NCBI GenBank assembly: GCA_016931415.1
Contig: JAFGEW010000057.1
Coordinates: 1-56,949 of the forward strand
Reading direction: 5' to 3'
Length of the DNA stretch: 56,949 nt
Source: Verrucomicrobiota bacterium
GTDB lineage: Bacteria; Auribacterota; JABMQX01; JAFGEW01
Shown: positions 30,172 through 50,492 of the stretch, piece after piece
Numbering within the stretch: position 1 is the first letter of the stretch
How the letters are laid out: the number at the start of each line of letters is the position of its first letter
The notes under the pieces: generated by a model
What the model saw: the letters and a program-made list of their open reading frames with translations, nothing else
Database searches by the model: none
Told to the model about the DNA's origin: nothing
Program-made: the position numbers and the translations under genes

Positions 30172-30198
30172 GAAGAGGCGGCCTCACGCCGCCCCTTC
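30172..30198 (-). terminator. Hairpin after the 728-residue protease gene
   Basis: Core arms GGCGGC and GCCGCC (30177-30182 and 30188-30193) are extended by further pairs to 30172 and 30198, with a 5-base loop. The hairpin lies 25 bases past the stop at 30224 on the minus strand and is followed by a pyrimidine-rich TTCCTT stretch. It is a plausible intrinsic terminator. Confidence 0.45.
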
Positions 30199-30223
30199 TC
30201 TGATCACTCGCTGGACGCTTGTG

Positions 30224-32410
30224 TTACTGCGTCGCGTTCTTGTCCTTTGCCTGTTCGAGGCCGCTCTCGATGCCCGTGCCGGCGACGGTCGTGACCGCGA
30301 AGCGCTGCGTGTCGGAGTAGTAGGGGACATCAAGGACCTCAGTCTCGACAAGGTCGATGATGAACTCGTGCGTGTTCGGTTCCACCGTAGCGACCGGCCA
30401 CCAAGGTCGGTCGTTCAGGCCCATCGAGCCGAAGCGGCGGTAGATGCGGAACGCGATCGGCCGGTCGATGTAGCTCTGCTCCTGCCCTTGGGGAGGCGTC
30501 CAAGTCACGCGCGCCAGGTCTGTGCGTCCAGGTGCTTTGACGTAGGCAGTCGCCCCGTCAGTTCCCGTTCTCTGCTCGACGTACTCCCACGCGACCTCAA
30601 CGGGCCGTCTGGGCGAGTTGGCCGAGCCGAACGGGCTCCGCAGCGCCATCGTGAACGTGTCCTTGTGGCCCGTGTACGTGGCGAGCCCGAAATCAACCGC
30701 CTGGAGCCAGTACCAAGCGACCTCGCCATCCTTGGTGACCTTGGCGAGCATCAGGCCGCGGTTGCCCACCACGTTGATGTCGCCGAACGGGTTCGCCGTG
30801 CGGTGGTAGCCGTTAAGGGTCTTGACTTCGATCTGCACGTCGCGGTTGGGCAGACGCATGAGACCGTCTTTGTCGGTGGTGCCGACGATGACTGGCTCCT
30901 TCGAGAGACCCTCGGTGTAGAAGCCGTTGTCTTCCTGCACGATCGGATACCAGGTCACGCCGTCCGGTTCGAGGCGCGGCTTGGCGTTAAGGTCCACCTT
31001 GGCGGCGCGCTGATAGATCTCCACCTTGGCGCCCGGCACGCCTGCGGCGTTGACGTCGACGACCTTGAGGTAGTTCTCCTTGGGGAAGTAGAAGTAGTAG
31101 TCGCCGAAGTAGCCGCGCGGCTTGTCCCACGTCTGGTTGAAGTACATGGCGCTGTACTCGCTGTAGAGATGCGGCCCGTGCCAAGCCATCATGATGATCG
31201 GATGGGTGAACAGGTGGGTGACTTTCTCGCCGTTATCGGGCCAGACGTGCACGTCGTCGCCACCGTAGTCGATCGCGTAGTAGTCGATCAGGCCGAGCTG
31301 GTGGCCCAGCTCGTGTGGCAGCGACCACTCGGTCGAGTTTCGCCATTCACGATCCGGATCGGCGAACACACCTGTCGTGTTCTCCTCGTCGGTGTTGCCC
31401 CAAACCCAGCCGCCTTGGTGGTAGCCGATGCCGTCGGGATCGTTGAACGACCTGTCGTGGATCTCAGGCGTGATGTCGTCCGTGTAGATGATCCGGTCGA
31501 GGCGAACGCGGCCGATAATGCCCTTGGGCGCCGACGGGTAGACGGAGGCGGCGAAGAGCTGGTTCATGATCGTTACGTGCCAGCGGTAGTAGTCCTCCCA
31601 GGAGAAGGTGCCGTACGCCGTGCGGTTACGGTGCCACGCCTCGACCCGGCCCTTGTCGACGATGAAGCGAAAGGCCCAGCCCCACATCGGGTCGGTGGCC
31701 TTGTTGTTGATCGTGGCGATCTCGCGCTGGGTTGTGGCGACCTCGAATCCAATTGTGTGGAATCCGTCCTGCCAGGCCCACTTGTGCTCGAAGCTCGTTT
31801 CCTCCATCTCCTTGAGTGACGTGTCGCATGTGCCACGTGCGGCTTCCTGATCGTCAATGAGCCAGCGATACCCGAACGGCTGTGCCGTCGTGAAGCCGAG
31901 GTTCTTGACGTGCGCCGTGAACGTGATCTGCTCGCCCGGCTTGTACTTGAACTTGAGGTTCTGCACGATGTACTCGGGCTCGAGAAACTTGCTCTTGCCC
32001 TGCGCCTCGAGCTCAGCTACCCGCTTGTCGAGCACAGGTGCCCCGCCGATCCACGGGGCGTTGCTCAGCCCCTCGTACTGCACGCGGCCGTGCAAGCCGG
32101 CCAGCTTCGGGTTCATCTCGATATAGGTGACCGAGAGGTCGGGCAGTTGCGGGTGGATGTCCCAGGCCTCAGGCCGCTCGATGGCCGGATTGCCGCCTTT
32201 CTCGGCGACCTGACTGCGTGGGATGATACGGTAGTCGAACGAGCCAACCTTAGCCGCGCTGTCCCAGACAACGAAGTGCGTGCCTTCGTCACGCACATAA
32301 CACCCCCCGAGTACGGTGCCGTCTTCGAGCTCCAGAGTGTCAGCCAACGCGGGGCCGGTCGTACTGAGAACGGCAATGAGTAGAAGCATGGTAGGTCGGT
32401 GTGATTTCAT
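30224..32410 (-). CDS. Secreted zinc metalloprotease with HELGHQLGLID motif (paralog 2)
   Basis: This 728-residue exported paralog of the adjacent protein has a signal peptide (about 1-23, ending in PALADTLE). The CARDB-like module (KYKPGEQITFTAHVKN) and the zinc site HELGHQLGLID (H366, E367, H370, D376) follow. The fibronectin-III-like end reads RVTWTPPQGQ...FRIYRRFGSMGLNDRPW. Much of the middle (RTAYGTFSWEDYYRWHV and RLDRIIYTDD) is nearly identical to paralog 1, so the pair arose by tandem duplication. ATG 32410 has GGAAAGGG upstream; longer in-frame starts are rejected. Confidence 0.8.
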   Translation of the reverse strand: MKSHRPTMLLLIAVLSTTGPALADTLELEDGTVLGGCYVRDEGTHFVVWDSAAKVGSFDYRIIPRSQVAEKGGNPAIERPEAWDIHPQLPDLSVTYIEMNPKLAGLHGRVQYEGLSNAPWIGGAPVLDKRVAELEAQGKSKFLEPEYIVQNLKFKYKPGEQITFTAHVKNLGFTTAQPFGYRWLIDDQEAARGTCDTSLKEMEETSFEHKWAWQDGFHTIGFEVATTQREIATINNKATDPMWGWAFRFIVDKGRVEAWHRNRTAYGTFSWEDYYRWHVTIMNQLFAASVYPSAPKGIIGRVRLDRIIYTDDITPEIHDRSFNDPDGIGYHQGGWVWGNTDEENTTGVFADPDREWRNSTEWSLPHELGHQLGLIDYYAIDYGGDDVHVWPDNGEKVTHLFTHPIIMMAWHGPHLYSEYSAMYFNQTWDKPRGYFGDYYFYFPKENYLKVVDVNAAGVPGAKVEIYQRAAKVDLNAKPRLEPDGVTWYPIVQEDNGFYTEGLSKEPVIVGTTDKDGLMRLPNRDVQIEVKTLNGYHRTANPFGDINVVGNRGLMLAKVTKDGEVAWYWLQAVDFGLATYTGHKDTFTMALRSPFGSANSPRRPVEVAWEYVEQRTGTDGATAYVKAPGRTDLARVTWTPPQGQEQSYIDRPIAFRIYRRFGSMGLNDRPWWPVATVEPNTHEFIIDLVETEVLDVPYYSDTQRFAVTTVAGTGIESGLEQAKDKNATQ

Positions 32411-32568
32411 GGCGCAACCCTTTCCTCGGCCCCCTCCTCCAGAAAGGGGCAGTGTGGTGTGAACTAACCCCCGATGGCCACCGACAGCCCCTTGTGGCCA
32501 TGCCCCTCCTATGTCCCTCTTCTGCGGGGCGCGAGCAAGAAGAAAATTACGGCTTGCCAACCGCCGCT

Positions 32569-32586
32569 CTGTGAATAAGATCACAG
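32569..32586. promoter_or_regulatory. CRP/FNR-type operator palindrome
   Basis: CTGTGAATAAGATCACAG is a perfect 6-6-6 palindrome with the CRP core TGTGA-N6-TCACA. It lies 89 bases upstream of the DUF485 start, in the divergent region between the protease and symporter genes. Acetate symporter operons are CRP-controlled in enterobacteria, but no CRP-family regulator is in the window. Confidence 0.55.
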
Positions 32587-32620
32587 CCGTTTGTCGCGTT
32601 GAGCCTGTTTGGGGATCTGG

Positions 32621-32644
32621 ACCCCGGCCGCCGCAGGCCGGGGT
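32621..32644 (+). terminator. Leader hairpin, possible attenuator, before the symporter operon
   Basis: Arms ACCCCGGCC and GGCCGGGGT (32621-32629 and 32636-32644) are perfect, with a 6-base loop, followed by TCTTCC. This is terminator-like. It sits between the CRP-like site and the GTG start at 32675, so it could attenuate the operon. The short T-tract weakens the case. Confidence 0.4.
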
Positions 32645-32674
32645 TCTTCCGCATCTGAGAGAGGAGGAGATGTC

Positions 32675-32971
32675 GTGCTTCACGAGCCTGTGTTGAAAGA
32701 CAGCCGCGATGTTGAGACGCCCCACAAAACGCACTTGGGCGTCTGGATGTTCCTTGTCTACGCCGTTATTTACGCGGGCTTCGTGGCGATCTGCGTTATC
32801 AAGCCGGTGCTGATGGAGGCCACCATCTTCTCCGGCCTGAACTTGGCGGTCGTCTACGGGTTCGGACTCATCATCGTTGCCCTGGTCATGGCGCTTATCT
32901 ACAACCACCTGTGCGCGGTGCACGAAGGCCATGTCAACAAGAGCAGAGCAGCATCAGGGGAGGGCAAGTAG
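32675..32971 (+). CDS. DUF485 family membrane protein
   Basis: This 98-residue protein has two membrane segments (about 22-44, WMFLVYAVIYAGFVAIC, and 56-78, NLAVVYGFGLIIVALVMAL), a basic tail and the ICVIKP block of DUF485 (YjcH-like). Such proteins accompany acetate-type sodium symporters. The start is a GTG behind GGAGGAG. The stop abuts the symporter ATG at 32972 with no gap, so the two are translationally linked. Confidence 0.88.
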   Translation: MLHEPVLKDSRDVETPHKTHLGVWMFLVYAVIYAGFVAICVIKPVLMEATIFSGLNLAVVYGFGLIIVALVMALIYNHLCAVHEGHVNKSRAASGEGK

Positions 32972-35372: not shown

Positions 35373-35740
35373 ATGGCTTGGACGTCGTCTGCTCTTCTGG
35401 GCGTCGTGGCGTGCACCGCCGTGGTGCTTCTGCTTGGAGCCTGCGGCACGCCGGCCACGCGCACCGGCGAGGCCGGCCAGGGTCTGGCGGTCCCAGAAAT
35501 CCGGATACCCCACCAGTACGTCTGTATTGCGTACCTCAGTGTCAAGTGCGATGGCGAGGAGCGGTTCCGCTCCGAATGGGTCAAGGATTGGATCGATGGA
35601 AAGCCGACGTCGACCTGATGGGCATCAGGCGGCTCGAACTGATCGTCGAGGACGGCGGCGATGGCGACTGGGGCGACTGCGCCATTTGGTTCTCACCGAT
35701 GGTCGGGCGGTCGTGGATGTCGTGTAGACCATGTCATTAG
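35373..35740 (+). pseudogene. Internally deleted and frameshifted metzincin-NPCBM protease remnant
   Basis: ATG 35373, behind AAGGAG, begins a lipoprotein signal (VVLLLGAC) and the N-terminal RIPHQYVCIAYL block of the protease family. The frame then jumps directly to SVKCDGEERFRSEWVKDWIDG, part of the C-terminal NPCBM domain. About 480 codons, including the HExxH site, are missing. Near 35600 the frame shifts by one base; the tail DLMGIRRLELIVEDGGDG and the terminal block continue in the neighbouring frame to the stop at 35740. It is a dead copy at the head of the protease array. Confidence 0.75.
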
Positions 35741-36020
35741 GCATGCGTGAGGAGTTCAGCACGGAGAACACGGAGAGAGAGCAGTCTCCTTGTCGCGCCG
35801 CGCACACCCAGTCGCGGCGAGCAGTGGCACATGCGTCTGACGTCGGTGTCGTCGAGGGGCAGGCGACAGAGTTGCCTTCGACGGGCTCGGGATGCTATAC
35901 TGGAGCTGATGTCGGCAAGGGCGCTGCGGAGGTGGGTGTCCTCGCCGCGTGCTTGGGGAGGATTTCCCGTGGCCCGCTGCGCATGGCGCATGGGCTGACA
36001 ACCGAGGAGGAGAACACACG
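35741..36020. other. Spacer before the protease operon
   Basis: These 280 bases hold no gene I can support. Repeated CACGGAGAACACGGAGAG-type words lie near 35758-35780. The last 20 bases contain the GAGGAGG ribosome-binding site for the next gene. I see no convincing promoter, although the promoter of the array must be here or further upstream. Confidence 0.4.
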
Positions 36021-37823
36021 ATGACTCAGAGAATGCTCACACGCCTGATCGTGGGTGGCTGCGTTGCTGTCGTGCTAATGGTGTGCGGCGAGTTCGCGCT
36101 CGCAGCGGCCGGCGGGGATGACGCGGCCGCGGCGCCCGCCAAGGTCAGAACGCCGCACGAGTTTGTCTACATTGTCTACCTCAACCCGGCCGACCGCGAG
36201 TGCCTGCCGAACTACCAGGAGCGGCTCGACCGCGTCATGACGACGATCCAGACGTGGTATCGCGACGAGATGGTGCGCAACGGCTTCGGCGCGATGACCT
36301 TCCCGCTCGAGCGTGACGAGGACGGCAAGCTCGTTATCCACGTCGTCAGAGGTACCCGGGCCTACGCCCAAGGCGAGGAGATCACGACCGGCGAGATGCG
36401 CGACGTGCAGGTCAAGCCGGCGCTCCTCAAAGAGGGCATCGACGTCGACCAGGAGCACATCATCATCCTCGCCAACGGCGCGTACGTGACCGAGAACGAC
36501 AACGGCGATAAGCTCGTTTACAGCTCGTCGCACTATGTCGGCAGTGGCAACCATAGGAGCGGAGCAGCGTGGGTGACCGACTACGAGTTTCTCGATCCGC
36601 TCAATCTCGAGAAAAAGGAGCCGGCGGTCTTCGACGGCGGCACGCGCCGCTACACGCTCGGCCACTATATGGTCACCTACATTGGCGGGATCGCCCACGA
36701 GTTCGGCCATGCGCTCGGTCTGCCGCATAACATGGAGACCGAGGCGCAGTTCGAGGAACTCGGCTACACGCTCATGGGCAGCGGCAACTACCATTTCCTT
36801 GCCAAACGTGCGGGCGATGAGAAGGAGTCCTACCTGAGCAAGGCGCACGCGACGATCCTCTCATCGCACCCGCTGTTCAGGCGCGACACGACTGACATTG
36901 ACGTGAGGCCCGTGTGCAAGTGGCACGACATCGAATTCGCGTCAGGCGACGGCGAGTACGTCGTCAGCGGCCGCGTCGAATCGGTACCGCGCGCTTACGC
37001 TGTGGTCGCCTACCACGACCTGACGCGCCACGCCGTTGACTACGATGCGACGAGTTGGGTCGGCACGGTCGGTGACGACGGGCGGTTCGAGGTCCGTGTT
37101 GGCGCGCTCAAGCCGGGCGTCTACGAGTTGCGGCTCAAGTGCTACTTCGTCAACGGGGATAAATGCGAACTCAGCTATCAGTTCCCGCTCGACGATACGT
37201 TCCAGCTCCCCGTCGAAGACCTGAAGCGCCAGACACTTTGCGAGCTCTATGTGAAGCCGGCCATCGAGGCGCGCGATCCTGACGCGCTGCTTCTCGCGAT
37301 CAACTCGCTCAAGACGGTCGACGACATTTACACCCGCCGTGCCCAGGCCTACCACCGTCTTATGACGCGCGAACGGACAAGGCCACAGCCGCTCGGCGCG
37401 CTCGGCGACGACGTGCGCGAGGTGCAGCTCTCGACAGCGGGGTGGGAATCAGCGAGCGTTGGCTGGGAGCGTCCCATGCGCGACCGCATTCCGGACGGCG
37501 CGCCACTCGAGTCCGGCAAGCAGTTCTATGAGTTCGGCTTGTACGCCCACGCCGATTCGAGCTACGTCTACAATCTGGAAGGCAAATGGGAACGCTTCAC
37601 CGCCGTCTGCGGGCTCCAGAACGAAGTCGAGGGCTCGGTGGTCTTCGCTGTCAAGTGCGACGGCAAGGAAGTATTCCGCTCCGATCTGATTAACGACTGG
37701 ACCGAAGTCCCCGTTGACCTTGACGTGACCGGTGTCAGGAAGCTCGAACTGATTGCCACCGACGGCGGCGACGGTAAGTGGGCTGACTGCTCCGTCTGGT
37801 TTGCACCAACGGTGACACGATAG
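36021..37823 (+). CDS. Secreted metzincin-type metalloprotease with NPCBM domain (array member 1)
   Basis: This 600-residue exported protein has a signal peptide (about 1-30) and a conserved N-terminal block, PHEFVYIVYLNPADRECLP. Its zinc site is HEFGHALGLPH (H226, E227, H230, H236), followed by a Met-turn-like TLMGSGNYH (M252). This is the metzincin HExxHxxGxxH-Met pattern. A beta-rich domain follows, with GEYVVSGRVES and a YELRLKCY strand. The C-terminus (from about 490) is an NPCBM carbohydrate-binding-like domain with LESGKQFYEFGLYAHADSSY. The peptidase cuts an unknown protein, probably outside the cell. It is the first intact gene of the array, with GAGGAGG before ATG 36021. Confidence 0.85.
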   Translation: MTQRMLTRLIVGGCVAVVLMVCGEFALAAAGGDDAAAAPAKVRTPHEFVYIVYLNPADRECLPNYQERLDRVMTTIQTWYRDEMVRNGFGAMTFPLERDEDGKLVIHVVRGTRAYAQGEEITTGEMRDVQVKPALLKEGIDVDQEHIIILANGAYVTENDNGDKLVYSSSHYVGSGNHRSGAAWVTDYEFLDPLNLEKKEPAVFDGGTRRYTLGHYMVTYIGGIAHEFGHALGLPHNMETEAQFEELGYTLMGSGNYHFLAKRAGDEKESYLSKAHATILSSHPLFRRDTTDIDVRPVCKWHDIEFASGDGEYVVSGRVESVPRAYAVVAYHDLTRHAVDYDATSWVGTVGDDGRFEVRVGALKPGVYELRLKCYFVNGDKCELSYQFPLDDTFQLPVEDLKRQTLCELYVKPAIEARDPDALLLAINSLKTVDDIYTRRAQAYHRLMTRERTRPQPLGALGDDVREVQLSTAGWESASVGWERPMRDRIPDGAPLESGKQFYEFGLYAHADSSYVYNLEGKWERFTAVCGLQNEVEGSVVFAVKCDGKEVFRSDLINDWTEVPVDLDVTGVRKLELIATDGGDGKWADCSVWFAPTVTR

Positions 37824-37843
37824 AGTGAACAAGGAGGTTTCTC

Positions 37844-39634
37844 GTGACGCAACTAGGGTATGTGCTTCTTCTGGTCCTGATGTGCGTCGCCGCGACGCTG
37901 CTTCCGAGTGCCGGCACGGCGCTCACGACAGAGGATCCGGCTGCGCCGGCCGGAGCGGTCAGAGCACCGCATCAGTACGTTTACATCGTCTACCTCAATC
38001 CGGCCGATCGAGAGTGCCTGCCCGACTATCAGGAGCGGCTCGACCGGGTTATGACCGTGGTTCAGACGTGGTACAGCGACGAGATGGTGCGCAACGGCTT
38101 CGGGCCGATGACGTTTCCACTCGAGCGCGACGAGGACGGCCGTCTCGTCATTCACGTTGTGAACAGCAGCCGCATCTACGTCAAGGGTGAGGAGATCACC
38201 AGTGACGACAAGCGCGACGTACGGGTCAAACCGGCACTCCTCAAGGAAGGCATCGACATCGACCAGGAGCACATCATCATTTTCGACAACTCCATCTTCG
38301 TCGAGAAGCGCGACGACGGCTTCTCTTACGACAGCTCGTCGGCTTACTGCGGCCTTGGCGATCACCGTAGCGGCACGGCGTGGGTCACTGATGCCGAGCT
38401 GCTTGACCCGCTCAACCTGGACAAGAAGGAGCCGATGATCTACGACGGCGGCACCCGTCCGTACACGCTTGGCGGCTACAACGTGACCTACCTCGGCGGG
38501 GTCGCCCACGAGTTCGGCCACGCCCTCGGCCTGCCGCACAACATGGAGACCGACGAGGAGCGCGAGGCGCTGGGTATCGCGCTTATGGGCAGCGGCAACT
38601 ACCACTTGTTCGGCGAGCGCGCCGGCATGGAGAAGGGTGCGTTCCTGTCGAAGGCGCACGCGACAATCCTCGCGTCGCACCCGCTATTCCGGCGCGACAC
38701 GACCGACATTGATGTCCGGGCCACGTGCAAGTGGCACGAACTCGAGTTCGCCTCGGGCGACGGCGAGTACGTCGTGAGCGGCCGCGTCGAGTCGACGCCG
38801 CCTGCCTATGCCGTCATCGCCTACCACGATCTGACTCGCCACCGGCTCGATTACGATGCGACGAGCTGGGTCGGCACGGTCGACAAGGACGGGCGGTTCG
38901 AGGTCCGCGTCGGCGCACTCAAGCCGGGCCTCTACGAGTTGCGGCTCAAGTGCTACTCCGTCAACGGCGACAAGCGAGAGCTTGCCTACAAATTCGAGCT
39001 CGACGACACCTTCAAGCTCCCCGTCGACGCGCTCAGACGCCGCACGCTTTACGAGGCCTACGCGAAGCCAGCCATCGAGGCCAACGACCTCGAGGCGCTG
39101 CTCGCCGCCATCGCGAAGCTCAAGGGCGTTGAGGACATCTACCTCCGCCGCGCCCAAGCCTACTCCCGCGCCATGACGCGCAAGCCGACGGAACTGCGCA
39201 AGCTCAGCAACCTCGACGACGGCGTGCGCGAAGTGGTGCTTTCGTCTGTCGAGTGGGAATCGGCCAGTGTCGGCTGGGATAGGCCGAAGGTCGATCATAT
39301 CGACGATTTCACACCGCTCGAATCGGGCAAGCAGTTCTATGACTTCGGCCTGTATGCACATGCCGATTCGAGCTACGTCTACAATCTCGACGGCAAGTGG
39401 AAGCGGTTCACCGCCGCGTGCGGGCTCCAGAACGAGGTCGAGGGCTCGGTGGTCTTCGCCGTCAAGTGCGACGGTAAGGAGGTGTTCCGCTCGCATCTGA
39501 TCGAGAACTGGACCGAAGTCCCCGTTGACCTTGACGTGACCGGCATCAAGAAGCTCGAGCTCATCGCCACCGATGGGGGCAACGGCAAGTGGGCCGATTG
39601 CTCCATCTGGTTCGGGCCCACGCTCTCGCGCTAG
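37844..39634 (+). CDS. Secreted metzincin-type metalloprotease with NPCBM domain (array member 2)
   Basis: This 596-residue paralog shares most motifs of member 1. It has a signal peptide (about 1-26), APHQYVYIVYLNPADRE, the zinc site HEFGHALGLPH (H222, E223, H226, H232), ALMGSGNYHLF, and an NPCBM domain with GLYAHADSSYVYNLDG. GTG 37844 has AAGGAGG upstream, 20 bases after the previous stop. The TAG stop lies within the CTAG target duplication of an inserted IS element, so the ORF is unbroken. Confidence 0.85.
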   Translation: MTQLGYVLLLVLMCVAATLLPSAGTALTTEDPAAPAGAVRAPHQYVYIVYLNPADRECLPDYQERLDRVMTVVQTWYSDEMVRNGFGPMTFPLERDEDGRLVIHVVNSSRIYVKGEEITSDDKRDVRVKPALLKEGIDIDQEHIIIFDNSIFVEKRDDGFSYDSSSAYCGLGDHRSGTAWVTDAELLDPLNLDKKEPMIYDGGTRPYTLGGYNVTYLGGVAHEFGHALGLPHNMETDEEREALGIALMGSGNYHLFGERAGMEKGAFLSKAHATILASHPLFRRDTTDIDVRATCKWHELEFASGDGEYVVSGRVESTPPAYAVIAYHDLTRHRLDYDATSWVGTVDKDGRFEVRVGALKPGLYELRLKCYSVNGDKRELAYKFELDDTFKLPVDALRRRTLYEAYAKPAIEANDLEALLAAIAKLKGVEDIYLRRAQAYSRAMTRKPTELRKLSNLDDGVREVVLSSVEWESASVGWDRPKVDHIDDFTPLESGKQFYDFGLYAHADSSYVYNLDGKWKRFTAACGLQNEVEGSVVFAVKCDGKEVFRSHLIENWTEVPVDLDVTGIKKLELIATDGGNGKWADCSIWFGPTLSR

Positions 39635-39652
39635 CAGGTTGCTGAAAAAGCC
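39635..39652 (+). repeat. Left terminal inverted repeat of the IS5-type element
   Basis: This is the outer end of the IS. It pairs with 40976-40993 in inverted orientation at 16 of 18 positions. The adjacent CTAG contains the stop codon of the preceding protease gene. Confidence 0.88.
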
Positions 39653-39782
39653 TCTATATCAAGGAATCGTCCTCGTGTCATCGTGCTTTGAGGTCTCGAA
39701 TGGCTCTGACCGGGCCGTGCCGTGGCCCGATCAACCGACGCGCGCCGATCGGTCTTGGTCACCGCGCCGATTGGGGCTTGCC

Positions 39783-40904
39783 TTACGGTGCCACAGCCGT
39801 CAACAGGTTGCGTATTCGGATCAGGTTGTAGGCCGCCGCAACGAACGTCCACATCCAGCCGACGCGCCTCGTGCCTTTGTGTCTTGTTTTTCGCAGCCCG
39901 CCGATGGTCTTGATCCAGCCGAAGATCTCCTCGACGCGCTTGCGCACGCGCTGGCTAATGCGATACCCGACGTGGCGCGTCGTGCGCGCGTCGATGCTCG
40001 AGCGGCGTCGCGTGTCGTTTTGCGCCACGTGCGGGACGGCACCCACCACGCGGATCGTATCGACAAAGCCCTGGCTGTCATAGGCCTTGTCGGCCCCGAC
40101 GCTGATGCGATGCGTGCCCGGCACCTCGGCGATCATCTCGATGGCCGCGTCGCGTTCGGCCGTGCCGCACGCCGTGGTCAACCTGGTATCGACCACCAGG
40201 CCATTGCGATTCTCCATCAGCACGTGCCCCATGTAGGACAGCTTGGCCTCTTTGCCTTGGCCCTTGCGATACAGACGCGCCTCGGGGTCCGTCTTCGAGG
40301 CATGCGTGTCGTTGGCCCGCCGCTGGCCGTGGAAGTTGACCTCCTCGTTGCGCCCGCCTCGCGTGCTGTCCGAGGAGGGGTGGCGGCCTTGCGAGTTGTC
40401 GGACGCTCCGGCATCGGCCTTGGGTTGAAAGCTCTTGAAGGAGGCCCACGCCTCGACCAGCGTGCCGTCAACAGTGAAATGCTCGGCCGACAGCAACCCT
40501 TCGGCACACGCCTGCCTGAGCACGGCGGCAAGGAACCCGGCGGCGATATCGGACCGGAGAAGCCGCTCCCGGTTCTTCGAAAACGTCGAGGCATTCCAGA
40601 CCTCGTCATCGATGCCGAGCCCGACAAACCAGCGAAACAACAGATTATAGTCGAGTTGCTGGACCAGCTGCCGTTCGCTGCGCACCGTGTAGAACGCCTG
40701 CAGCAGCAACGCGCGCAGCAGACGCTCGGGTGCGATCGAGGGGCGCCCCTCGTCCGAATACATCGCCGCGAACCGCGGCGACAGCTCGTGGAGCGCGCCG
40801 TCAACAAGCCGACGCACCACGCGCAATGGATGATCGGCCGGTACCCGATCCTCAAGACTTACATAAGAAAACATCGCGCCTTGATTGCTGTCACCGCCGC
40901 GCAT
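39783..40904 (-). CDS. IS5-family transposase
   Basis: This 373-residue transposase has an N-terminal DUF772-like region (FSYVSLEDRVPADHPLR, FSKNRERLL). The DDE core has HFTVDGTLVEAWAS for the first Asp, GADKAYDSQG for the second, and the RKRVEEIFGWIK acidic residue near the C-terminus. The product is full-length with no obvious frameshift, so the element may be active. AAGGGGG precedes ATG 40904. Confidence 0.93.
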   Translation of the reverse strand: MRGGDSNQGAMFSYVSLEDRVPADHPLRVVRRLVDGALHELSPRFAAMYSDEGRPSIAPERLLRALLLQAFYTVRSERQLVQQLDYNLLFRWFVGLGIDDEVWNASTFSKNRERLLRSDIAAGFLAAVLRQACAEGLLSAEHFTVDGTLVEAWASFKSFQPKADAGASDNSQGRHPSSDSTRGGRNEEVNFHGQRRANDTHASKTDPEARLYRKGQGKEAKLSYMGHVLMENRNGLVVDTRLTTACGTAERDAAIEMIAEVPGTHRISVGADKAYDSQGFVDTIRVVGAVPHVAQNDTRRRSSIDARTTRHVGYRISQRVRKRVEEIFGWIKTIGGLRKTRHKGTRRVGWMWTFVAAAYNLIRIRNLLTAVAP

Positions 40905-40975
40905 TGTCGTTCCCCCTTGTCGGTGCCGTCTTCAGTCCTCGTCGAGCAACACGAGTATATATACGACGTGACAAG

Positions 40976-40993
40976 GGGTTTTTCAACAACCTG
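40976..40993 (-). repeat. Right terminal inverted repeat of the IS5-type element
   Basis: This is the inverted partner of the left repeat, followed by the second CTAG target copy. The ribosome-binding site of the next protease gene begins within 20 bases. Confidence 0.88.
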
Positions 40994-41017
40994 CTAGAGG
41001 CGCAAGGAGGAACACTG

Positions 41018-44000
41018 GTGAGGTACATTCTGGCTGTCAGTCTGATTGTGGTGGAGTGTGCGGTGGCATTGCTGACGAGCGGCTGCACATCGGTGACCGG
41101 CAACGGCCCAGCTCCCGCCGAAGCGGGAGTGCGGACACCTCACCAATATGTTCATATCATCTACCTGAATCCCGCGGACCGTGAGTGCCTGCCGGATTAC
41201 CACAAACGTATCGATGCGCTGATGACCGAAGTGCAGGGTTGGTACCGAGATGAGATGGTGCGAAACGGCTTCGAGCCGATGACGTTCCCGCTTGAACGAG
41301 ATGCCGACGGCAACCTGATCATCCATGTGATCCAGGGGACCAAGTCGTATGCCTGGCGCGAGGAGGTCTCGACGACAGAGATCCGCGAGAATCAAGTCAA
41401 GAGGCCAATGCTGGCGAAGGGCATCGATATTGACCAGGAGCACATCATCATCTTTCAGAACGCCACCTTCCCCAGCGAACCGGGGTACAAGAGGAGTTAT
41501 CGCTGTTGGGTGCCCTACTGTGGAGGAGGCAACCACCAGCACGGCACAGCCTACGTGCACGACTACCCGGGCATGGACATCGTGAACACCCCCACGATTG
41601 GCATGGGCGGCGGAGTGGCGCACGAGTTCGGGCACGCGCTCGGTCTCCCGCACAACAGAGAGACGGACGAACAGCGCGCGCAGCTCGGGCACGCATTGAT
41701 GGGCAACGGCAACGAGCGTTTCTCCGCGCCCCGTATTGGGGAAGGGAAGGGCGCATTTCTGTCGAAGGCGCATGCGACCGCGCTCTCGTCTCACCCGTTG
41801 TTCAGACGCGACACGACGGACATCGACGTCAAGCCCGAGGTTCGATTCTCTGATATTGCATTTACCCGGGGCGAGGGTGAATACATCGTCAGCGGTCACG
41901 TCGAGTCGTCGCCGGCTCCCTATGCCGTGCTCGCCTATCATGACGACAAGGCAATCGGAATGGACTACGAAGCGACGAGCTGGGTCGCAGACTTCGACAA
42001 AGACGGACGCTTCGAGGTTCACGTGGGACAGCTCAAGCCCGGCCCGTTTGAGTTGCGGCTCCGCGCCTACATGGTCAACGGCGATCACCGTCAGTTGGGA
42101 TATGGTTTCGAGATCGGGCCATCGCTCGAGATCCCGATCGCCGAGCTGAATCGGCAGACGCTGTACGAGCTCTACGCCAAGCCGGCCATCACGGCTCGCG
42201 ATACCGGCGCGCTGCTTACCGCGATCGAGAAGCTCGCGGGTGTCTACGACATCTACTATCGTCGGGCCAGAGCATACTACGACCAGCTGACACGCCCCCG
42301 GCCCGAGCCGAAGAGACTCGCCGATCTCCCGGACTCGGTGAGCCAAGTGCCACTTTCATCGGTCAGTTGGGAATCGGCGACGGTCGGGTGGGAGGCGCCG
42401 ACGCGCGACGGGATCCCGGCCAGCGATGAGGAGGGGCAGAGCATCTCCTGGCCGCTTGAGTCGGGAATGCGGTTCCACGAGAGCGGCCTCTACGCCCACG
42501 CAAACTCCAGCTATGTCTTCAAGCTCGACGGCAACTGGACGCGGTTCTCGAGCGGCTACGGGCTTCAGAATAACAACAAGGGATCAGTTGTCTTTGTCGT
42601 CAAGTGCGACGGCTTCGAATGCTTCCGCTCCGAGCTGATCGAGGACTGGGTCGAACGGCACATCGACATCGACCTCACCGGCGTCGGAGAGCTCGAGCTC
42701 ATCGTTGAGGACGGTGACAACGGCGGGTGGGGTGATTGCGGCGTCTGGTTTTCGCCCATGCTTACACGTTTGGATCGTGATGGCTCGGACGGGAGGATAA
42801 AGCAGACACGGCTTGTTCAAGAGGATCCTCCCGCCCATCAATACGTTCACATCGTCTACTTCAATCCGGCCGGGCGCAAATGCCCGCCAGGATACTACAA
42901 GCGGCTCGAACGTGTGATGACCGAGATCCAAACATGGTATCGCGATGAGATGGAGCGGAATGGCTTCGGACCGATGACGTTCGCGCTGGAGCGTGATATC
43001 GGAGGCCGGATGGTGATCCACGTCGTCACCGGCACGAAACCCTATGTCTATGGCGAGGAGATCAGCGCCAAGGAGATCTTCGACGACTGGGTCAAGCCGC
43101 AACTGCTTGAGCAAGGCCTCGACGTCGAGCAGGAACACATCATTGTGTTCCAGAACAGCTGCTTCGAAACCGTCAGCGACGATGTCTGGTGCATCCACAG
43201 TTGGGCGCCGTATTGGGGTGGTGGCTGCCGGACGGATGGTGTTGCCTGGGTCATCGATTTCACGTTGTTTGACCCGCTCAATCTGGCAAGGGAGAAGCCG
43301 TTCGTCTATACCGGTGATCGTCGGTACGGGCCGTTGAACCGGTTCATCGTGTCCCATATGGGCGGCGTGGCGCACGAGTTCGGCCATGCACTCGGCCTGC
43401 CGCACAACGACCAGACCGAGGAGCAGTTGGCGAAGCTTGGCTACGCGCTCATGGGCAGCGGCAACTATCACTTGTTCGGCGAGCGAGCGGGCCAGGAGAA
43501 AGGCGCGTTTCTCTCCAAGGCACACGCGGCCATCCTGTCGTCGCACCCGCTGTTCAAGCGCAATAAGGACGATATCGATGTGAAGGCCGATTTCCGATTT
43601 GGGGAGATCACGTTTGTTGCCGGGGAGGGGGAGTACACCGTCCGCGGGCAGGTCGAGGCCGCGCCGCACGCGTATGCGGTCGTTGCCTATCACGACGGTT
43701 TGAAGGATCAGATGGATTACGACGCGACGAGTTGGGTGGGCATGGTCGACGAGAACGGCCGCTTCGAGGTGCGTGTCGAGTGCCCTGATCCCGGAGAGTT
43801 CGTGTTGCGGCTGCGCTGCTATGCGGTGAACAGCGATCGGGCCGAGCTGGTCTACCGGTTCGCGCTCGACAACTCGCTGACGATCCCCGTCGAGGAGCTC
43901 AACCGGCAGTCGTTGTACGAGCTTCACGCCAAGCCGGCCATCATTGCCCAGGATCCCGACGCGTTGCTCGAGGCGATCGAGAAGCTCAAGGGCAAGGACG

Positions 44001-44512
44001 ACATCTATCTGCACCGTGCTCGGGCCTACCACGGCCTCATTACGCGCCCGGCAACCACGCCTCAAGCGCTCAGCGCCGTCGAGGAAACAGTGCGTGAAAT
44101 CCCGCTCTCGGCGGTGACGTGGGAATCGGCGACGGTCGGCTGGCAAGAACCAGCGCGCGACCGCTTCCCGGATGAGGAGCGGCCGGCGCGGCCGCTCGAG
44201 TCCGGCGCGCAGTTCCATGAGACGGGCTTATGGGCTCATTCAAGGTCCAGCTACGTCTACAATCTTGATGGACGATGGAAGCGGTTGACCACCGGCTGCG
44301 GGCTCCAGAATCTGGTCGAGGGTTCAGTGGTGTTTGTCATTAAGTGCGATGGTACGGTGCAGTTTCGCTCCGAGAAGGTGACGGATTGGACTGAACGAAA
44401 GGCCGACGTCGATCTGACGGACGTCCAGCGGCTCGAGTTGATTGTGGAGGACGGCGGCGATGGCGACTGGGGCGACTGCGCCATCTGGTTTTCTCCGAAG
44501 CTGTCACGTTAG
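41018..44512 (+). CDS. Double metzincin-NPCBM metalloprotease fusion (array members 3 and 4 fused)
   Basis: This 1164-residue lipoprotein is two complete array proteases in one chain. The first module has a lipobox (LLTSGC, C23), PHQYVHIIYLNPADRE, zinc site HEFGHALGLPH (H202, E203, H206, H212) and an NPCBM domain. Near residue 590 a short linker joins a second module lacking a signal peptide: AHQYVHIVYFNPAGRKC, zinc site HEFGHALGLPH (H786, E787, H790, H796) and a second NPCBM domain. It probably formed by loss of the stop and start between two tandem genes. GTG 41018 has AAGGAGG upstream; in-frame starts reaching into the IS are rejected. Confidence 0.88.
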   Translation: MRYILAVSLIVVECAVALLTSGCTSVTGNGPAPAEAGVRTPHQYVHIIYLNPADRECLPDYHKRIDALMTEVQGWYRDEMVRNGFEPMTFPLERDADGNLIIHVIQGTKSYAWREEVSTTEIRENQVKRPMLAKGIDIDQEHIIIFQNATFPSEPGYKRSYRCWVPYCGGGNHQHGTAYVHDYPGMDIVNTPTIGMGGGVAHEFGHALGLPHNRETDEQRAQLGHALMGNGNERFSAPRIGEGKGAFLSKAHATALSSHPLFRRDTTDIDVKPEVRFSDIAFTRGEGEYIVSGHVESSPAPYAVLAYHDDKAIGMDYEATSWVADFDKDGRFEVHVGQLKPGPFELRLRAYMVNGDHRQLGYGFEIGPSLEIPIAELNRQTLYELYAKPAITARDTGALLTAIEKLAGVYDIYYRRARAYYDQLTRPRPEPKRLADLPDSVSQVPLSSVSWESATVGWEAPTRDGIPASDEEGQSISWPLESGMRFHESGLYAHANSSYVFKLDGNWTRFSSGYGLQNNNKGSVVFVVKCDGFECFRSELIEDWVERHIDIDLTGVGELELIVEDGDNGGWGDCGVWFSPMLTRLDRDGSDGRIKQTRLVQEDPPAHQYVHIVYFNPAGRKCPPGYYKRLERVMTEIQTWYRDEMERNGFGPMTFALERDIGGRMVIHVVTGTKPYVYGEEISAKEIFDDWVKPQLLEQGLDVEQEHIIVFQNSCFETVSDDVWCIHSWAPYWGGGCRTDGVAWVIDFTLFDPLNLAREKPFVYTGDRRYGPLNRFIVSHMGGVAHEFGHALGLPHNDQTEEQLAKLGYALMGSGNYHLFGERAGQEKGAFLSKAHAAILSSHPLFKRNKDDIDVKADFRFGEITFVAGEGEYTVRGQVEAAPHAYAVVAYHDGLKDQMDYDATSWVGMVDENGRFEVRVECPDPGEFVLRLRCYAVNSDRAELVYRFALDNSLTIPVEELNRQSLYELHAKPAIIAQDPDALLEAIEKLKGKDDIYLHRARAYHGLITRPATTPQALSAVEETVREIPLSAVTWESATVGWQEPARDRFPDEERPARPLESGAQFHETGLWAHSRSSYVYNLDGRWKRLTTGCGLQNLVEGSVVFVIKCDGTVQFRSEKVTDWTERKADVDLTDVQRLELIVEDGGDGDWGDCAIWFSPKLSR

Positions 44513-44537
44513 AACGAACACCCAGGGAGGTCGTCCC

Positions 44538-46265
44538 GTGGCACGAGTACGCCATGTGTTGTTGACCGTCGCGGCCTGTGCCGCCCTGATGCTGCTCTCG
44601 GGCGCCGCGATGGCGCTCACGACCGAGGAGCCGGCTGGGCCGGCGCGCGAGATGAGAACGCCGCATCAGTACGTCTACGTTGTCTACCTGAACCCGGCCG
44701 ACCGGGAATGCCTGCCCGGCTATGAGGAGCGGCTCGATGGCGCGCTCACCGCGATCCAGGACTGGTATCGCCGCGAGATGAAGCGCAACGGTTTTGGGGA
44801 GATGACCTTCCCGCTCGATCGCGATGAGGACGGCAAGCTCATCGTTCATCTCGTCAACGGCACGCTCACCTACGATCGCGGCAAGGGCGTCTCGACTGAC
44901 GAGGTCCGCGAGAACCAGGTCAAACCGGCGCTGCTCGAGGAAGGCATCGACATCGACCAGGAACACGTCGTGATTGTCCAGAACGCCAACTACTTCAAGG
45001 AGGTCGACGGCGAGACGGAGATCGAGGGCTGGGCGCCGTTCTGCGGCGAGGGCGATCACGGGCACGGCACGGCGTATTGTACCGACTCGAATCACCTCGA
45101 GCTGTCGCGGATGCCGGCCACCGGGCTCGGCGGCGTCGCACACGAGCTCGGCCATGCGCTCGGTCTGCCGCACAACAGCGAGACCGCCGCAGAGGCTCAG
45201 ACGCTCGGTACCGCCCTGATGGGCCGAGGCCAGTACGTGTTCCTGGCCGAGCGCGCCGGGGCGAAGAAGGGCGCGTTCCTGACCAAAGCCCATGCGATCG
45301 CACTCTCGTCGCACCCGCTGCTCAAGGGCAACACGAAAGACGTCGACGTCGAGCCCGACTGCCGTTTCAGCGACATCACGTTCGCTCAGGGCAAGGGCGA
45401 GTACATCGTGCGCGGGCGCGTCGAGTCGACGCCGGCAGCGTACGCGCTGCTCGCTTACCACGACGACATGGTCGAGGCGATGGACTACGAGGCGACAAGC
45501 TGGGTTGCCGACTTCGATGAGGAGGGCCGCTTCGAGGCCCATGTCGGCGAGCTGAAACCGGGTCCGTTCGAGCTGCGGCTTCGCGCTTGCCTGGAAAACG
45601 GCGACACGTGCACGCTCGAGTTCCAGTTCGAGATCGACAAGTCGCTCCAGATCCCGATCGCCGAGTTACAGCGCCAGGCGATCTACGAGCTTCACGCCAA
45701 GCCCGCCATCGAGGCGCGCGACACGGACGCCCTGCTGGCCGCCATCGGCCAACTCGCCGGCTACAACGACATCCATTACCGCCGGGCCAGGGCCTGGTAC
45801 CAGCAGATGACCCGGACGAAGCCCGAGCCGGTCACGCTGAGCGTGCTCAAGGACTCGGTCCGCCAGGTACCGCTCTCGACGGTTCAGTGGGAATCGGCCA
45901 CGGTCGGCTGGGAGGAGCCGGCGCGCGACGGCCTCCCCGGTGGTGCACCGCTCGAGTCGGGCGCGCAGTTCCATGAGACCGGCCTCTACGCGCACGCTCC
46001 GTCGAGCTATGTGTTTGATCTCGGCGGCAACTGGAAGCGGTTCACGAGCGGCTATGGCCTGCTCAACATCTGCAAGGGTTCAGTGATCTTTGTTGTCAAG
46101 TGCGACGGCGAGGAGCGGTTCCGCTCGGAGCTCGTCGAGGACTGGGTCGAGGGTTGGGTGGACGTCGACCTGACCGGAGTCAAGAAGCTCGAGTTGATCG
46201 TCGAGGAGGAATTCGACGCCTGGGCCGACTGCGCCCTCTGGTTCTCGCCGATTGTGACACGCTAA
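44538..46265 (+). CDS. Secreted metzincin-type metalloprotease with NPCBM domain (array member 5)
   Basis: This 575-residue protein has a signal peptide (about 1-25), MRTPHQYVYVVYLNPADRE, and a variant zinc site HELGHALGLPH (H202, E203, H206, H212) in which Phe after the first Glu is Leu. ALMGRGQYVFL follows, with an Arg and Gln change next to the Met-turn. The C-terminal NPCBM domain contains ETGLYAHAPSSYVFDLGG. GTG 44538 follows GGGAGG, 25 bases after the previous stop. The changes around the active site suggest a different substrate. Confidence 0.85.
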   Translation: MARVRHVLLTVAACAALMLLSGAAMALTTEEPAGPAREMRTPHQYVYVVYLNPADRECLPGYEERLDGALTAIQDWYRREMKRNGFGEMTFPLDRDEDGKLIVHLVNGTLTYDRGKGVSTDEVRENQVKPALLEEGIDIDQEHVVIVQNANYFKEVDGETEIEGWAPFCGEGDHGHGTAYCTDSNHLELSRMPATGLGGVAHELGHALGLPHNSETAAEAQTLGTALMGRGQYVFLAERAGAKKGAFLTKAHAIALSSHPLLKGNTKDVDVEPDCRFSDITFAQGKGEYIVRGRVESTPAAYALLAYHDDMVEAMDYEATSWVADFDEEGRFEAHVGELKPGPFELRLRACLENGDTCTLEFQFEIDKSLQIPIAELQRQAIYELHAKPAIEARDTDALLAAIGQLAGYNDIHYRRARAWYQQMTRTKPEPVTLSVLKDSVRQVPLSTVQWESATVGWEEPARDGLPGGAPLESGAQFHETGLYAHAPSSYVFDLGGNWKRFTSGYGLLNICKGSVIFVVKCDGEERFRSELVEDWVEGWVDVDLTGVKKLELIVEEEFDAWADCALWFSPIVTR

Positions 46266-46285
46266 CTAGAAGGAGAACACCGACC

Positions 46286-48082
46286 ATGCGTTTTTTGCTT
46301 GCACGACGCATCGCGCTCTCTCTTGTCGCGACGCTGATGGCCATGGCCGCCGTTTCGGCCGGCGCCGACACGCCTCCGCCGATCCGACCGCCGCATCAAG
46401 CCGTCTACATCGTCTATTTCAACCCCGCCGACCGCGAGTGCTTGCCCCGCTACCAGGAACGTGTCGACCGCGTCATGACCGAGGTGACGGCCTGGTACGC
46501 CAAGGAGATGAAGCGCAACGGCTTCGGCGAGAGGACGTTTCCGCTCGAACGCGATGAGGACGGCAAGCTCATCATCCACGTCGTCAACGGCTCGCGCGTG
46601 TACGCGGAAGGCGAGGCGATGGGCCACGAGGAGATCCGCGACAAGCAGGTCAAGCCGGTGCTGCTTGGGGAAGGCATCGACATCGACCAGGAACACATAA
46701 TCATCTTCCAGAACCTCAACTTCGTCACCGAAGGTGAGGGTGAGATCTCGGTTCGCTGCTGGGCGCCGTACTGCGGCGGCGGTGGGACTGAACAAGGCAC
46801 GGCGTGGGTGACGGACTACGCGCTGCTCGACGTCGAGAACCTGTCGAACACGACGATGATGGTCGATCTCGGCTTCAAAGAGAAGTGGACGCTGAGCCGG
46901 TACGTGATCAGCCATCTGGGCGGCGTGGCGCACGAGTTTGGCCACGCCCTTGGCCTCCCTCACAACGCCGAGACGGACGCGCAGCGCGCCGAGCTCGGCA
47001 CCGCGCTCATGGGCAGCGGCAACTACCACCTGTTCGCCGAGCGCATCAGCGACGACAAGGGGGCGTATCTGACCAAGGCGCACGCGACCATCCTCTCGTC
47101 GCACCCGCTGTTCAACCCGAAGCCGGTCGAGTTCGACGGCGAGGTGACCTGTACGTTCCACGACGTGGCGTTTGCAGCGGGCGACGGCGAGTACACGGTG
47201 AGCGGCCGGGTCGAGACGACGCCGCGCGCGTACGCGGTCGTGGCCTACCACGACGGGCGCGCCCGCGCGATGGACTACGACGCGACGAGCTGGGTGGCTG
47301 GCGTCGATGACGAGGGCCGCTTCGCCGTGCGCGTCGGCGCGCTCACACCCGGGCGCTTCGAGCTGCACGTTGGGTGCTGCCTGGTGAACGGTGAACGGCG
47401 CTTTCTGAGCTACGAATTCGACGTGGACCAGGACTTGCAGGTTCCGATCGAGGTGCTCAAGCGACAGACGATCTACGAACTGTACGCGAACCCGGCCATC
47501 GACGCGCGCGATGCGGAGGCGATGCACGCCGCCGTGGACAAGCTCAAGGGCGTTGACGACATCCAGTACCGGCGGGCCGTAGCCTACCTGGACCTGATGA
47601 CGCGCAAGCCGGTCGAGCCGAAGCGGCTCGGCGAGCTTGGCGACAACGTACGCGAGGTGCAGCTCTCGCAGGTCACGTGGGAGTCAGCCGATGTCGGTTG
47701 GGACGAGCCGACGCGCGGGTCTGTCCCGGTCAGAGATGAGGACGACAACAGGAAGGATATGCCGCTCGAATCCGGTGAGCGGTTCCACGAGACGGGCCTG
47801 TACGCGCACGCCGACTCGCGCTACGTTTTCAACCTCGACGGCGCGTGGAAGTCGTTCACGAGCGGCTACGGGCTCGAGAACCGGTGCCAGGGCTCGGTCG
47901 TGTTCGTTATCAAGTGCGACGGCGAGGAGCGATTCCGCTCCGACCTGATCGACGATTGGACCGAGCACCGCGTCGAGATCGACGTCATGGGCGTCAAGCA
48001 GCTCGAGCTCATCGCCTCAGACAACGGCGACGGCCATCAGGGCGACTGCGCGATCTGGTTCTCTCCGATCCTGAAGCGCTGA
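46286..48082 (+). CDS. Secreted metzincin-type metalloprotease with NPCBM domain (array member 6)
   Basis: This 598-residue last member of the array has a signal peptide (about 1-28), RPPHQAVYIVYFNPADRE, zinc site HEFGHALGLPH (H216, E217, H220, H226) and ALMGSGNYHLF. It has a slightly longer hinge region (VRDEDDNRKDMPLES) before an NPCBM domain with ETGLYAHADSRYVFNLDG. ATG 46286 has GAAGGAG upstream, 20 bases after member 5. No terminator-like hairpin is visible after the stop. Confidence 0.85.
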   Translation: MRFLLARRIALSLVATLMAMAAVSAGADTPPPIRPPHQAVYIVYFNPADRECLPRYQERVDRVMTEVTAWYAKEMKRNGFGERTFPLERDEDGKLIIHVVNGSRVYAEGEAMGHEEIRDKQVKPVLLGEGIDIDQEHIIIFQNLNFVTEGEGEISVRCWAPYCGGGGTEQGTAWVTDYALLDVENLSNTTMMVDLGFKEKWTLSRYVISHLGGVAHEFGHALGLPHNAETDAQRAELGTALMGSGNYHLFAERISDDKGAYLTKAHATILSSHPLFNPKPVEFDGEVTCTFHDVAFAAGDGEYTVSGRVETTPRAYAVVAYHDGRARAMDYDATSWVAGVDDEGRFAVRVGALTPGRFELHVGCCLVNGERRFLSYEFDVDQDLQVPIEVLKRQTIYELYANPAIDARDAEAMHAAVDKLKGVDDIQYRRAVAYLDLMTRKPVEPKRLGELGDNVREVQLSQVTWESADVGWDEPTRGSVPVRDEDDNRKDMPLESGERFHETGLYAHADSRYVFNLDGAWKSFTSGYGLENRCQGSVVFVIKCDGEERFRSDLIDDWTEHRVEIDVMGVKQLELIASDNGDGHQGDCAIWFSPILKR

Positions 48083-48184
48083 GGCACTTGGGGAGGAAGA
48101 CGGCTGGCACAGGACCTCCCGCGGGTAGTATAAGACCGGTGCGTGGCCATGCTCTATCAGCGGGGTGATGGGATCGTGCCGGAC

Positions 48185-50492
48185 ATGGGGAAGACGCCAG
48201 ACGACATCCGACGCTCCGTCGAGACACAGCTCGAAGCGGCACGCCGCGGCCTGCTCGACCTGAGCATGCGCAACCGCCTGCTCAACTTCCGGCCGGGCAA
48301 GGCGCGCTCGCTGCGCATCGTCGACGAGGTGCCGCGCGAGGTTTACCATCGACTCGTCCTCGACGAGCGGGCCATGGTCTTCCGTCCTAGGCCCGAGTCC
48401 GAACCCGAGCCGGCACCGGAACCTGGACCCTCGCCTCAGCCTGATCCCGCGCCGCAGCCCGAGCAGCAGACACCGCCGCCATATGCCGATCCGCAAGCTC
48501 ATGGCGCTCGCCGGCGGCCTGATCCAGAGGATCAAACCCTGCTTCATGCTCAGCCCGCTGTCGATCGCGCAGTTTCTCGACCCGCGCGTGACCAAGTTCG
48601 ACGTCGTCGTTTTCGACGAGGCGAGCCAGGTCCATCCCGCCGACGCGCTCGGCGCTATGCTGCGCGCCGGCCAGATCGTCGCCATGGGCGACACGCATCA
48701 GCTCCCGCCGACGACGTTCTTTGACTACCTCGTTGACGCGCGTGACGAATACGATGAGGAAGCGGCCACGACGGTGACGGACATTGAGAGCATTCTCCAC
48801 CTGTGCAAGCGCAGCTTCCCGTCCAAGACGTTGCGCTGGCATTACCGGAGCCGCCACGAGTCCCTGATCGCTGTGTCGAACCAGGAATTCTACGACAACC
48901 GCTTGCTCTTCTACCCGTCGCCCATCGACGAGATTGACCGGCTCGGCCTCGCCTTCGTTCACCTGCCCGAGACGCAGTACGACCGCGGCCGCAGCGCGAC
49001 GAACCGCGAGGAGGCGCGTGCTGTCGTCGCCGCCGCCTTCGATCAGTACCGGCGGTTCCCCGAGCGCAGCGTCGGGATCGGCACCTTCAACATCAAGCAG
49101 CAGGAGGCTATACTCGAGGAGGTCGAGCGCCAGCTCCGCGCCCAGCCCGATATGGAACCGTTCTTCGCGCCCAACCGGCACGAGCACTTCTTCGTCAAGA
49201 ACATCGAGACGATCCAGGGCGACGAGCGCGACACAATCCTCATCAGCATCGGCTACGGGCGCGACAGCGCGGGCAAGCTGACGCACAACTTCGGCCCGCT
49301 CAATCACAAGGGCGGCGAGCGCCGCCTCAACGTCCTTATCACCCGTGCACGCGAGCAGTGCATCGTCTTCTCGAACTTCCGCGGCGATGACCTCCGCGTC
49401 GATGCCGCGACCCCTGCCGGCGTCGCCGCGCTCAAGGCGTTCCTCGACTTCGCCGAGCACCGCATGCTGCGCCGTACGGCTGAGTCGCCCGACGAGCGCG
49501 AAACCCCGTTCCACGACGAGATCAGCGCTTTCCTGCGCGAGCACGGCCACGAAGTGCGCACGCGCGTCGGTTGCGCGGGCTTCCGCGTGGACTTGGGCGT
49601 CATCGACGACAGGAACCCCGGCCGGTACCTGCTCGGTGTCGAATGCGACGGGCCCAAGTACCACGGCTCGCATGTCGCGCGCGACCGCGACCGCCTTCGC
49701 CGCCAGATCCTCGAGAAGCTCGGATGGCAGATCGACTGCGTCTGGTCCACGGACTGGTACCGTAGCCGCACGGCGTGCGAGCATCGGCTGCTCCAGGCCA
49801 TTGCCGCCGCGAGACTCGACCCCCCGCGCCCCAAGCCGGAGCGGAAGGCGCCCGAACTGGTCGTCGCCGTGCCCACACCCGCGCCGGTGGTCATCGAGCA
49901 GCGTCCGGACGCGAGCCTGCCGCCGACGCGGTCGCTCGAGGATTTTGCCGACGAGTACGTGCGCGCCGACTCGCTTGGCATACCGGCCGGCGGCGACATC
50001 AATGACTGCCCGCAGGACCAGCTCGCCGCCGCCGTGCGCACCGTTGTCAACGTCGAGGGGCCGATCCACGTCGACGAGGCCATCCGCCGCATCCGATCGC
50101 TCTGGGGCCTGGCGCGTACGGGCGACAAGGCCTACGCGACGATCCTCACCGCGACTTGGGCCGCCGAGGATCGCGGCTGGATCGAGCGCCGCGGCCTATT
50201 CCTTTGGCCCGGCGACCAGCGCCCGGTCCCCGTGCGCCGCCGCACCGACGACCCGCCGCCGCGCCTCGATCTGATCTGCGAGCCCGAGATTGCCGAGGCC
50301 GTCAAGCGCGTCCTCCAGTTCCAACACGCCACCGTCGCCGACGAGCTCGTGGTGCAGGCCTCGCGCCTCCTTGGCTTCAAGCTCACCGCCCGCACCACGG
50401 CCGACCGCATGCACCGCATCGTGGACGAACTGGTCGCCGGCGGCGACCTCGTCACCCTTCCCAACGGCATGCTCGCTTTGCCAGAAGCGTGA
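48185..50492 (+). pseudogene. Internally deleted DUF4011-helicase-Vsr-DUF3320 defence-type gene
   Basis: The first frame (from ATG 48185) encodes the start of a DUF4011 protein (ETQLEAARRGLLDLSMRNRLLNF, then a Pro/Glu/Gln-rich linker). At about 48480 a second frame takes over with PIRKLMALAGGLIQRIKPCF, joining the C-terminal half of an SF1 helicase (DVVVFDEASQVHPADALGA, NVLITRAREQ). A Vsr-like nuclease (VGCAGFRVDLGVI, VECDGPKYHGS) and a DUF3320 domain follow. The helicase Walker A and most of the core, expected at more than 1000 residues, are missing and the frames differ. Related intact proteins have been linked to phage defence. Confidence 0.8.

Follow-up and report, generated by a model that had tools for sequence, protein, structure and literature searches.

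We identified six tandem metzincin-NPCBM modules, encoded by five genes that all lie on the plus strand at positions 36021-48082 of the window (Table 1), and consider that they probably constitute a set of secreted O-glycopeptidases of the OgpA/Amuc_1438 family that has diversified for different O-glycans, an activity predicted from sequence comparison and structural models. The window is the whole contig C57 (56,949 nt) of a 4.06-Mb genome estimated to be 98.9% complete and 4.5% contaminated. A seventh complete copy, 62% identical to gene 2, lies on a separate contig (C29:66271-68007). The copies keep their catalytic residues but differ in the glycan pocket, and for this reason we propose that between them they act on different O-glycans, or different O-glycan densities, of mucin-like glycoproteins.

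Checking the open reading frames with their starts and stops, together with a Pfam search, bore out the initial annotation, which had described six complete modules in five genes, one gene of 1164 residues carrying two of them, plus one gutted copy. The intergenic spacers that it gave (20, 20 with the insertion sequence set aside, 25 and 20 nt) were reproduced, and so were the HE(F/L)GHALGLPH motif, which reads HE(F/L)GHALGLPHN and is accompanied by a Met-turn in 6/6 modules, and the C-terminal NPCBM domain in each. The claim that every module has a signal peptide or lipobox holds, on inspection by eye, for the five genes but not for the second module of gene 3, which lacks a signal peptide of its own; genes 1, 2, 4 and 5 have ordinary signal peptides, and a lipobox is present only in gene 3 and the gutted copy. 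The mature proteins would thus be exported or, in the lipobox type, lipid-anchored. Shine-Dalgarno-like sequences (AGGAGG/GGGAGG/AAGGAG) precede genes 2-5, and the array may be co-transcribed. The IS5-family element is bounded by 22-nt inverted repeats that are 91% complementary and by a duplicated CTAG (39631-39634 and 40994-40997); its target site was the gene 2 stop codon, which is preserved. The GC content of the array (61-66%) fits that of the window (64%).

Table 1. Features of the protease array, with positions in the window
Feature	Position	Strand	Description
Gutted copy	35373..35727	+	N-terminus with lipobox fused to the final ~45 NPCBM residues, with a frameshift; NPCBM tail match 35597-35701
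Promoter-like site	35872..35901	+	TTGCCT-18-TATACT, TG before the -10; gene 1 begins ~120 nt downstream; identified by consensus match alone
Gene 1	36021..37823	+	Secreted metzincin (OgpA/Amuc_1438 type), helical linker and NPCBM
Gene 2	37844..39634	+	Architecture as gene 1: metzincin, linker and NPCBM (CBM51-like C-terminal domain)
IS5-family insertion sequence	39635..40993	-	Transposase 39783-40904 (- strand)
Gene 3	41018..44512	+	Double-headed, 1164 aa, predicted lipoprotein (lipobox LTSGC), two complete metzincin-NPCBM modules
Gene 3 module N	41018..42769	+	Has lost the pre-zinc-helix segment and the pocket Tyr/Phe; carries the loop Trp; Met-turn GNGNE
Gene 3 module C	42770..44509	+	Short fused linker 42770-42832; His in place of the pocket aromatic; carries the loop Trp
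Gene 4	44538..46265	+	HELGH; GRGQY Met-turn; pre-zinc-helix segment deleted; pocket Gly and loop Trp
Gene 5	46286..48082	+	Metzincin, linker and NPCBM; pocket His and loop Trp

Elsewhere in the window, a PARIS-like pair on the minus strand (3984-6073) comprises an AriA-type AAA ATPase (PADLOC AriA, E 6.7e-37) followed by a DUF4435/AriB-like protein (E 6e-7). Positions 14800-18787 (minus strand) encode clustered MinD/NifH-like Fe-S ATPases together with a Nitro_FeMo-Co domain protein and a radical SAM protein. Two adjacent paralogous ORFs of 763 and 902 aa (27799-32932, minus strand), oriented away from the array, carry HELGHQLGL-DYY and a weak CARDB match; neither matched a Pfam peptidase family, the 763-aa one had no PDB match, and they are possibly another uncharacterised family of secreted metalloproteases.

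Profiles and models place the modules in the OgpA/Amuc_1438 O-glycopeptidase family. NPCBM (PF08305) was matched in all six modules at E 1e-24 to 1e-54, and the Pfam family PF12044 'Metallopep' in 5/5 genes at 27.6-42.2 bits, above its curated cut-off of 27 bits. When a profile built from the six modules was searched against all PDB sequences, Amuc_1438 (8dek, E 2.5e-48) and OgpA (6z2o, E 2.7e-30) were matched over the whole catalytic region, with an identity of ~22-29% in the aligned region, while the C-terminus matched CBM51/NPCBM structures; the second catalytic domain of gene 3 and that of gene 4, searched singly, also found Amuc_1438 and OgpA. The metzincin and NPCBM folds that had been expected were confirmed by Pfam, by AlphaFold2 models and by matches to PDB folds. 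In the models of gene 2 (pLDDT 86.8) and gene 4 (pLDDT 84.9), the catalytic part has a two-domain fold, a five-stranded sheet plus a beta-sandwich, whose best matches in the PDB were Amuc_1438 (8dek/8df2) and then OgpA (6z2x); the C-terminus best matched a CBM51 with methyl-galactose (2vmg, TM 0.82), and helices at 394-445 of the gene 2 model form a linker of the three-helix Amuc_1438 type. Membership of other peptidase families was rejected. No array gene matched PF13402, and the metzincin motif is present instead, which excludes M60/M88/M98. Matches to M6, M10, M12 and M66 mostly covered no more than the HEXXH stretch, and they largely fell short of the cut-off; scores just above it (M6, M10 and Reprolysin_3) arose only in the double-headed gene, which has two such stretches. 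An NCBIfam search gave no family name.

Amuc_1438 of Akkermansia muciniphila has been shown biochemically to be a Tn-antigen O-glycopeptidase, which cuts on the N-terminal side of a Ser/Thr that carries a single GalNAc; it consists of a signal peptide, a metzincin domain, a helical linker and an NPCBM domain, is matched by PF12044, and its catalytic part has been solved (8dek/8df2) (PMC9513282). A single array module is therefore of a known kind. The two share, in addition, the beta-sandwich, the CBM51-like character of the C-terminal domain, the zinc site and one pocket Tyr, although the two modelled modules are only 24-29% identical to Amuc_1438. Amuc_1438 is nevertheless a single gene with a single head and is specific for Tn, whereas the array has six tandem modules and one double-headed gene. 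OgpA of A. muciniphila (6z2d/o/p/q), a solved cousin of Amuc_1438, also cuts N-terminal to O-glycosylated Ser/Thr (PMC7518263). It shares with the array the two-domain catalytic fold, HEXXHXXGXXH, the Met-turn, Y318 and the F166 pocket aromatic; unlike the array modules it lacks NPCBM, and it stacks the core 1 Gal on Y116, where they have E, G or A. The M60-like O-glycopeptidases (M60/M88/M98: BT4244, ZmpB, IMPa) do a similar job and sometimes carry CBM51 modules (ZmpB), but they belong to another family with another zinc site. Multi-gene sets of them are known, with 16 M60 genes in Bacteroides caccae (PMC13355702).

We mapped the pocket positions by alignment to OgpA and Amuc_1438 numbering and compared them with those of 42 relatives. 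In 7/7 modules of this genome (the six of the array and C29), the zinc ligands, catalytic Glu, Met of the Met-turn and Y318 are invariant, and the first pocket aromatic (OgpA F166/Amuc_1438 Y171) is Y or F. The second pocket aromatic (OgpA W199/Amuc_1438 Y217), which contacts GalNAc, is F in 27 of the relatives, Y in 12, L in two and M in one; at this position the array has Y, Y, a gap, H, G and H (genes 1, 2, 3N, 3C, 4 and 5, respectively), so that the Y217-equivalent Tyr is kept only in genes 1 and 2 and in C29. In all four modules lacking it, the loop-6 position that corresponds to OgpA G163 is occupied by Trp, a residue found there in the aligned motif of none of the 42 relatives, and the three that keep the Tyr carry Ser, giving a clean 4/3 split. 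The split may reflect one inherited event; the branch uniting the four Trp-type modules is weak (support 59/47). The segment preceding the zinc helix, present in Amuc_1438, is missing from gene 3N and gene 4. The zinc helix modelled for gene 4 extends 8 residues ahead of the first His, compared with 13 for gene 2, and the gene 4 model lacks two strands. As the long zinc helix of OgpA blocks O6-substituted GalNAc (PMC7518263), gene 3N and gene 4 may, by analogy, accept branched glycans. These mapped differences support the suggestion, made from active-site variants (HELGH, MGRGQY), that the copies have diversified.

In the mechanism that we propose, the zinc centre would cut the peptide backbone, most likely immediately before a Ser/Thr bearing an O-glycan; the glycan would be read by a pocket that loop 6 forms together with the Met-turn loop and the beginning of the zinc helix, and the CBM51-like NPCBM would hold the enzyme on its glycosylated substrate. 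In the gene 3 product, a single chain attached to the cell would combine two different specificities. A bolder form of this proposal, which we advance only tentatively, is that the four altered modules have rebuilt the GalNAc pocket, with the aromatic moved from the zinc helix to the loop Trp and the helix shortened in two of them, and read O-glycans that the characterised members refuse (for instance O6-branched or non-GalNAc glycans of environmental or bacterial glycoproteins), gene 3 being the first double-headed member, with two specificities.

The same pocket changes can be read differently. D166, Y171 and Y217 are all essential in Amuc_1438, and Y171A and Y217A abolish its activity (PMC9513282); the four altered modules could therefore have lost glycan dependence or activity, and D166 is present only in gene 2, being absent from the other five array modules. 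The array might then consist of general secreted metzincins for peptide scavenging, with either all modules or the four altered ones no longer requiring a glycan. The small number of mucin glycosidases in the genome would fit this, as would the family at large: its ~500 Amuc_1438 relatives in Verrucomicrobiota, Planctomycetota and Bacteroidota are mainly environmental and their 'biological roles may be diverse' (PMC9513282). We nonetheless regard scavenging as unlikely, because NPCBM and the first pocket aromatic have been retained throughout and because precisely those modules that lost the second aromatic have a Trp in a loop of this pocket, which looks like re-shaping of the pocket rather than its loss.

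The copies are genuine. Pairwise identity among the six array modules is 54-73% for protein and 67-77% for DNA, and the longest exact word that they have in common is 37 nt, which argues against both recent copying and an artefact of assembly; we rejected the two. The dN/dS ratio between pairs ranges over 0.22-0.50, and most dS values fall at 0.7-1.4 (simple Nei-Gojobori estimates, rough at such divergence), and on these values the copies are under purifying selection, which again speaks against artefacts. In a tree with the relatives, all seven modules of this genome form one clade (support 100/98), pointing to a single founder followed by local duplication; by this phylogeny, the array is a lineage-specific tandem expansion. 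The interruption by an insertion sequence and the one dead copy, whose tail has 82% DNA identity to the second NPCBM of gene 3, indicate that part of the array may be decaying. Directly downstream of the array (48143-50492, plus strand) lies a gutted PDC-S37 candidate defence gene, of which the N part (profile positions 4-72) and the C part (900-1542 of 1550) are in different frames, an internal deletion in the same style as that of the upstream protease copy. That the whole array is a decaying and largely non-functional duplication, with no selected division of labour, is nevertheless very improbable: five reading frames are intact, all catalytic residues have been kept at dS near 1 and at the dN/dS values above, and the Shine-Dalgarno-like sites remain.

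The genomic context favours a role in glycan breakdown. The neighbours of the PMG_196 homologue are GH20, GH29, GH95, two sulfatases and a GlcNAc epimerase, those of the RUG14836 homologue an M60 peptidase and a Gfo/Idh/MocA oxidoreductase gene, and the seventh copy on C29 follows a GH36-like gene. The genome also carries four M60 genes. Three of them form a second tandem set, on contig C133 (L171:9313-15872, minus strand) near a C25 peptidase, and one of the three, a 955-aa ORF with two HELGHDFD motifs, is perhaps double-headed too. A 1336-aa ORF on contig C76 (L052:860-4867, minus strand) has a partial N-terminal NPCBM and no other Pfam match. Attack on glycoproteins by this organism is likely from its gene content, but with one GH29 and no GH20 the genome is not that of an obvious mucin forager, and such a reading of the whole genome is weak. 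Of the two roles first suggested for the array, extracellular degradation or envelope processing, the latter found no support and cleavage of glycoproteins is the better supported. A related possibility is that the substrates are O-glycosylated surface or pilin-like proteins of the bacterium itself, which the enzymes would trim or set free; the predicted lipid anchor of the double-headed member and the DUF1559-type genes within the window are compatible with it. This seems to us quite improbable, as neither glycosylation machinery nor a dedicated substrate gene was found among the genes examined beside the array, and relatives sit in catabolic glycan clusters.

It had been stated that no system of this form has been described. 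This does not hold for the single module, which Amuc_1438 matches, but it stands for the double-headed, six-module arrangement, which was not found elsewhere in the genomes searched: none of 1,114 other genomes of four phyla showed more than two adjacent copies. In the host phylum (44 genomes) close members are present only in the source genome, and the same-class relative G001 has only a distant homologue. Among 392 Planctomycetota (the phylum of RUG14836), 388 Verrucomicrobiota (that of Akkermansia) and 291 genomes of the PMG_196 phylum, relatives mostly occur as one gene per genome or, in Akkermansia-like genomes, as a short gene of OgpA type plus another of ~640 aa; these counts are lower bounds, as 5-7 candidates were scored per genome, but an array should still show. 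Relatives thus usually have a single gene, as had been foreseen in case the copies were artefacts, which they clearly are not. The largest grouping elsewhere is an adjacent pair, seen in four Verrucomicrobiota genomes (G647, G506, G503 and G524). Every close relative ORF examined has one catalytic match per frame and so is single-headed, and NPCBM is nearly always present, at the same distance, in relatives other than the OgpA type. No double-headed O-glycopeptidase was found in the open-access literature.

Tandem arrangement as such is not unique in the wider superfamily, given the Verrucomicrobiota pairs and a set of Poribacterial genes (L174-L176). The latter share the N-terminal block and an HELGHAFGL motif with the array and stand in tandem groups of two or three, but they are distant (E ~1e-17 to 1e-28) and differ in their WD40-like N-terminus, the lack of NPCBM, HD rather than HN after the third ligand, and an LMSYG Met-turn. 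Up to 11 such WD40-metzincin matches occur per Poribacterial genome, and some copies lack HEXXH. What is new in the present locus is the arrangement, with its six modules and double head, and the divergence of the copies; the type of enzyme is known.

In summary, the two members of this family characterised in the open literature come from one gut species and have one glycan specificity each. Seven diverged paralogues in which catalysis is constant and the pocket varied are a natural series for studying sugar choice, and they might supply glycoproteomics with new O-glycan-selective cutters. Gut bacteria use the same family to cut mucin-like glycoproteins, and so diversified a row of its members is unusual. 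With seven modules of the OgpA/Amuc_1438 family and four M60 genes, a poorly sampled lineage has invested heavily in enzymes of the O-glycopeptidase type.
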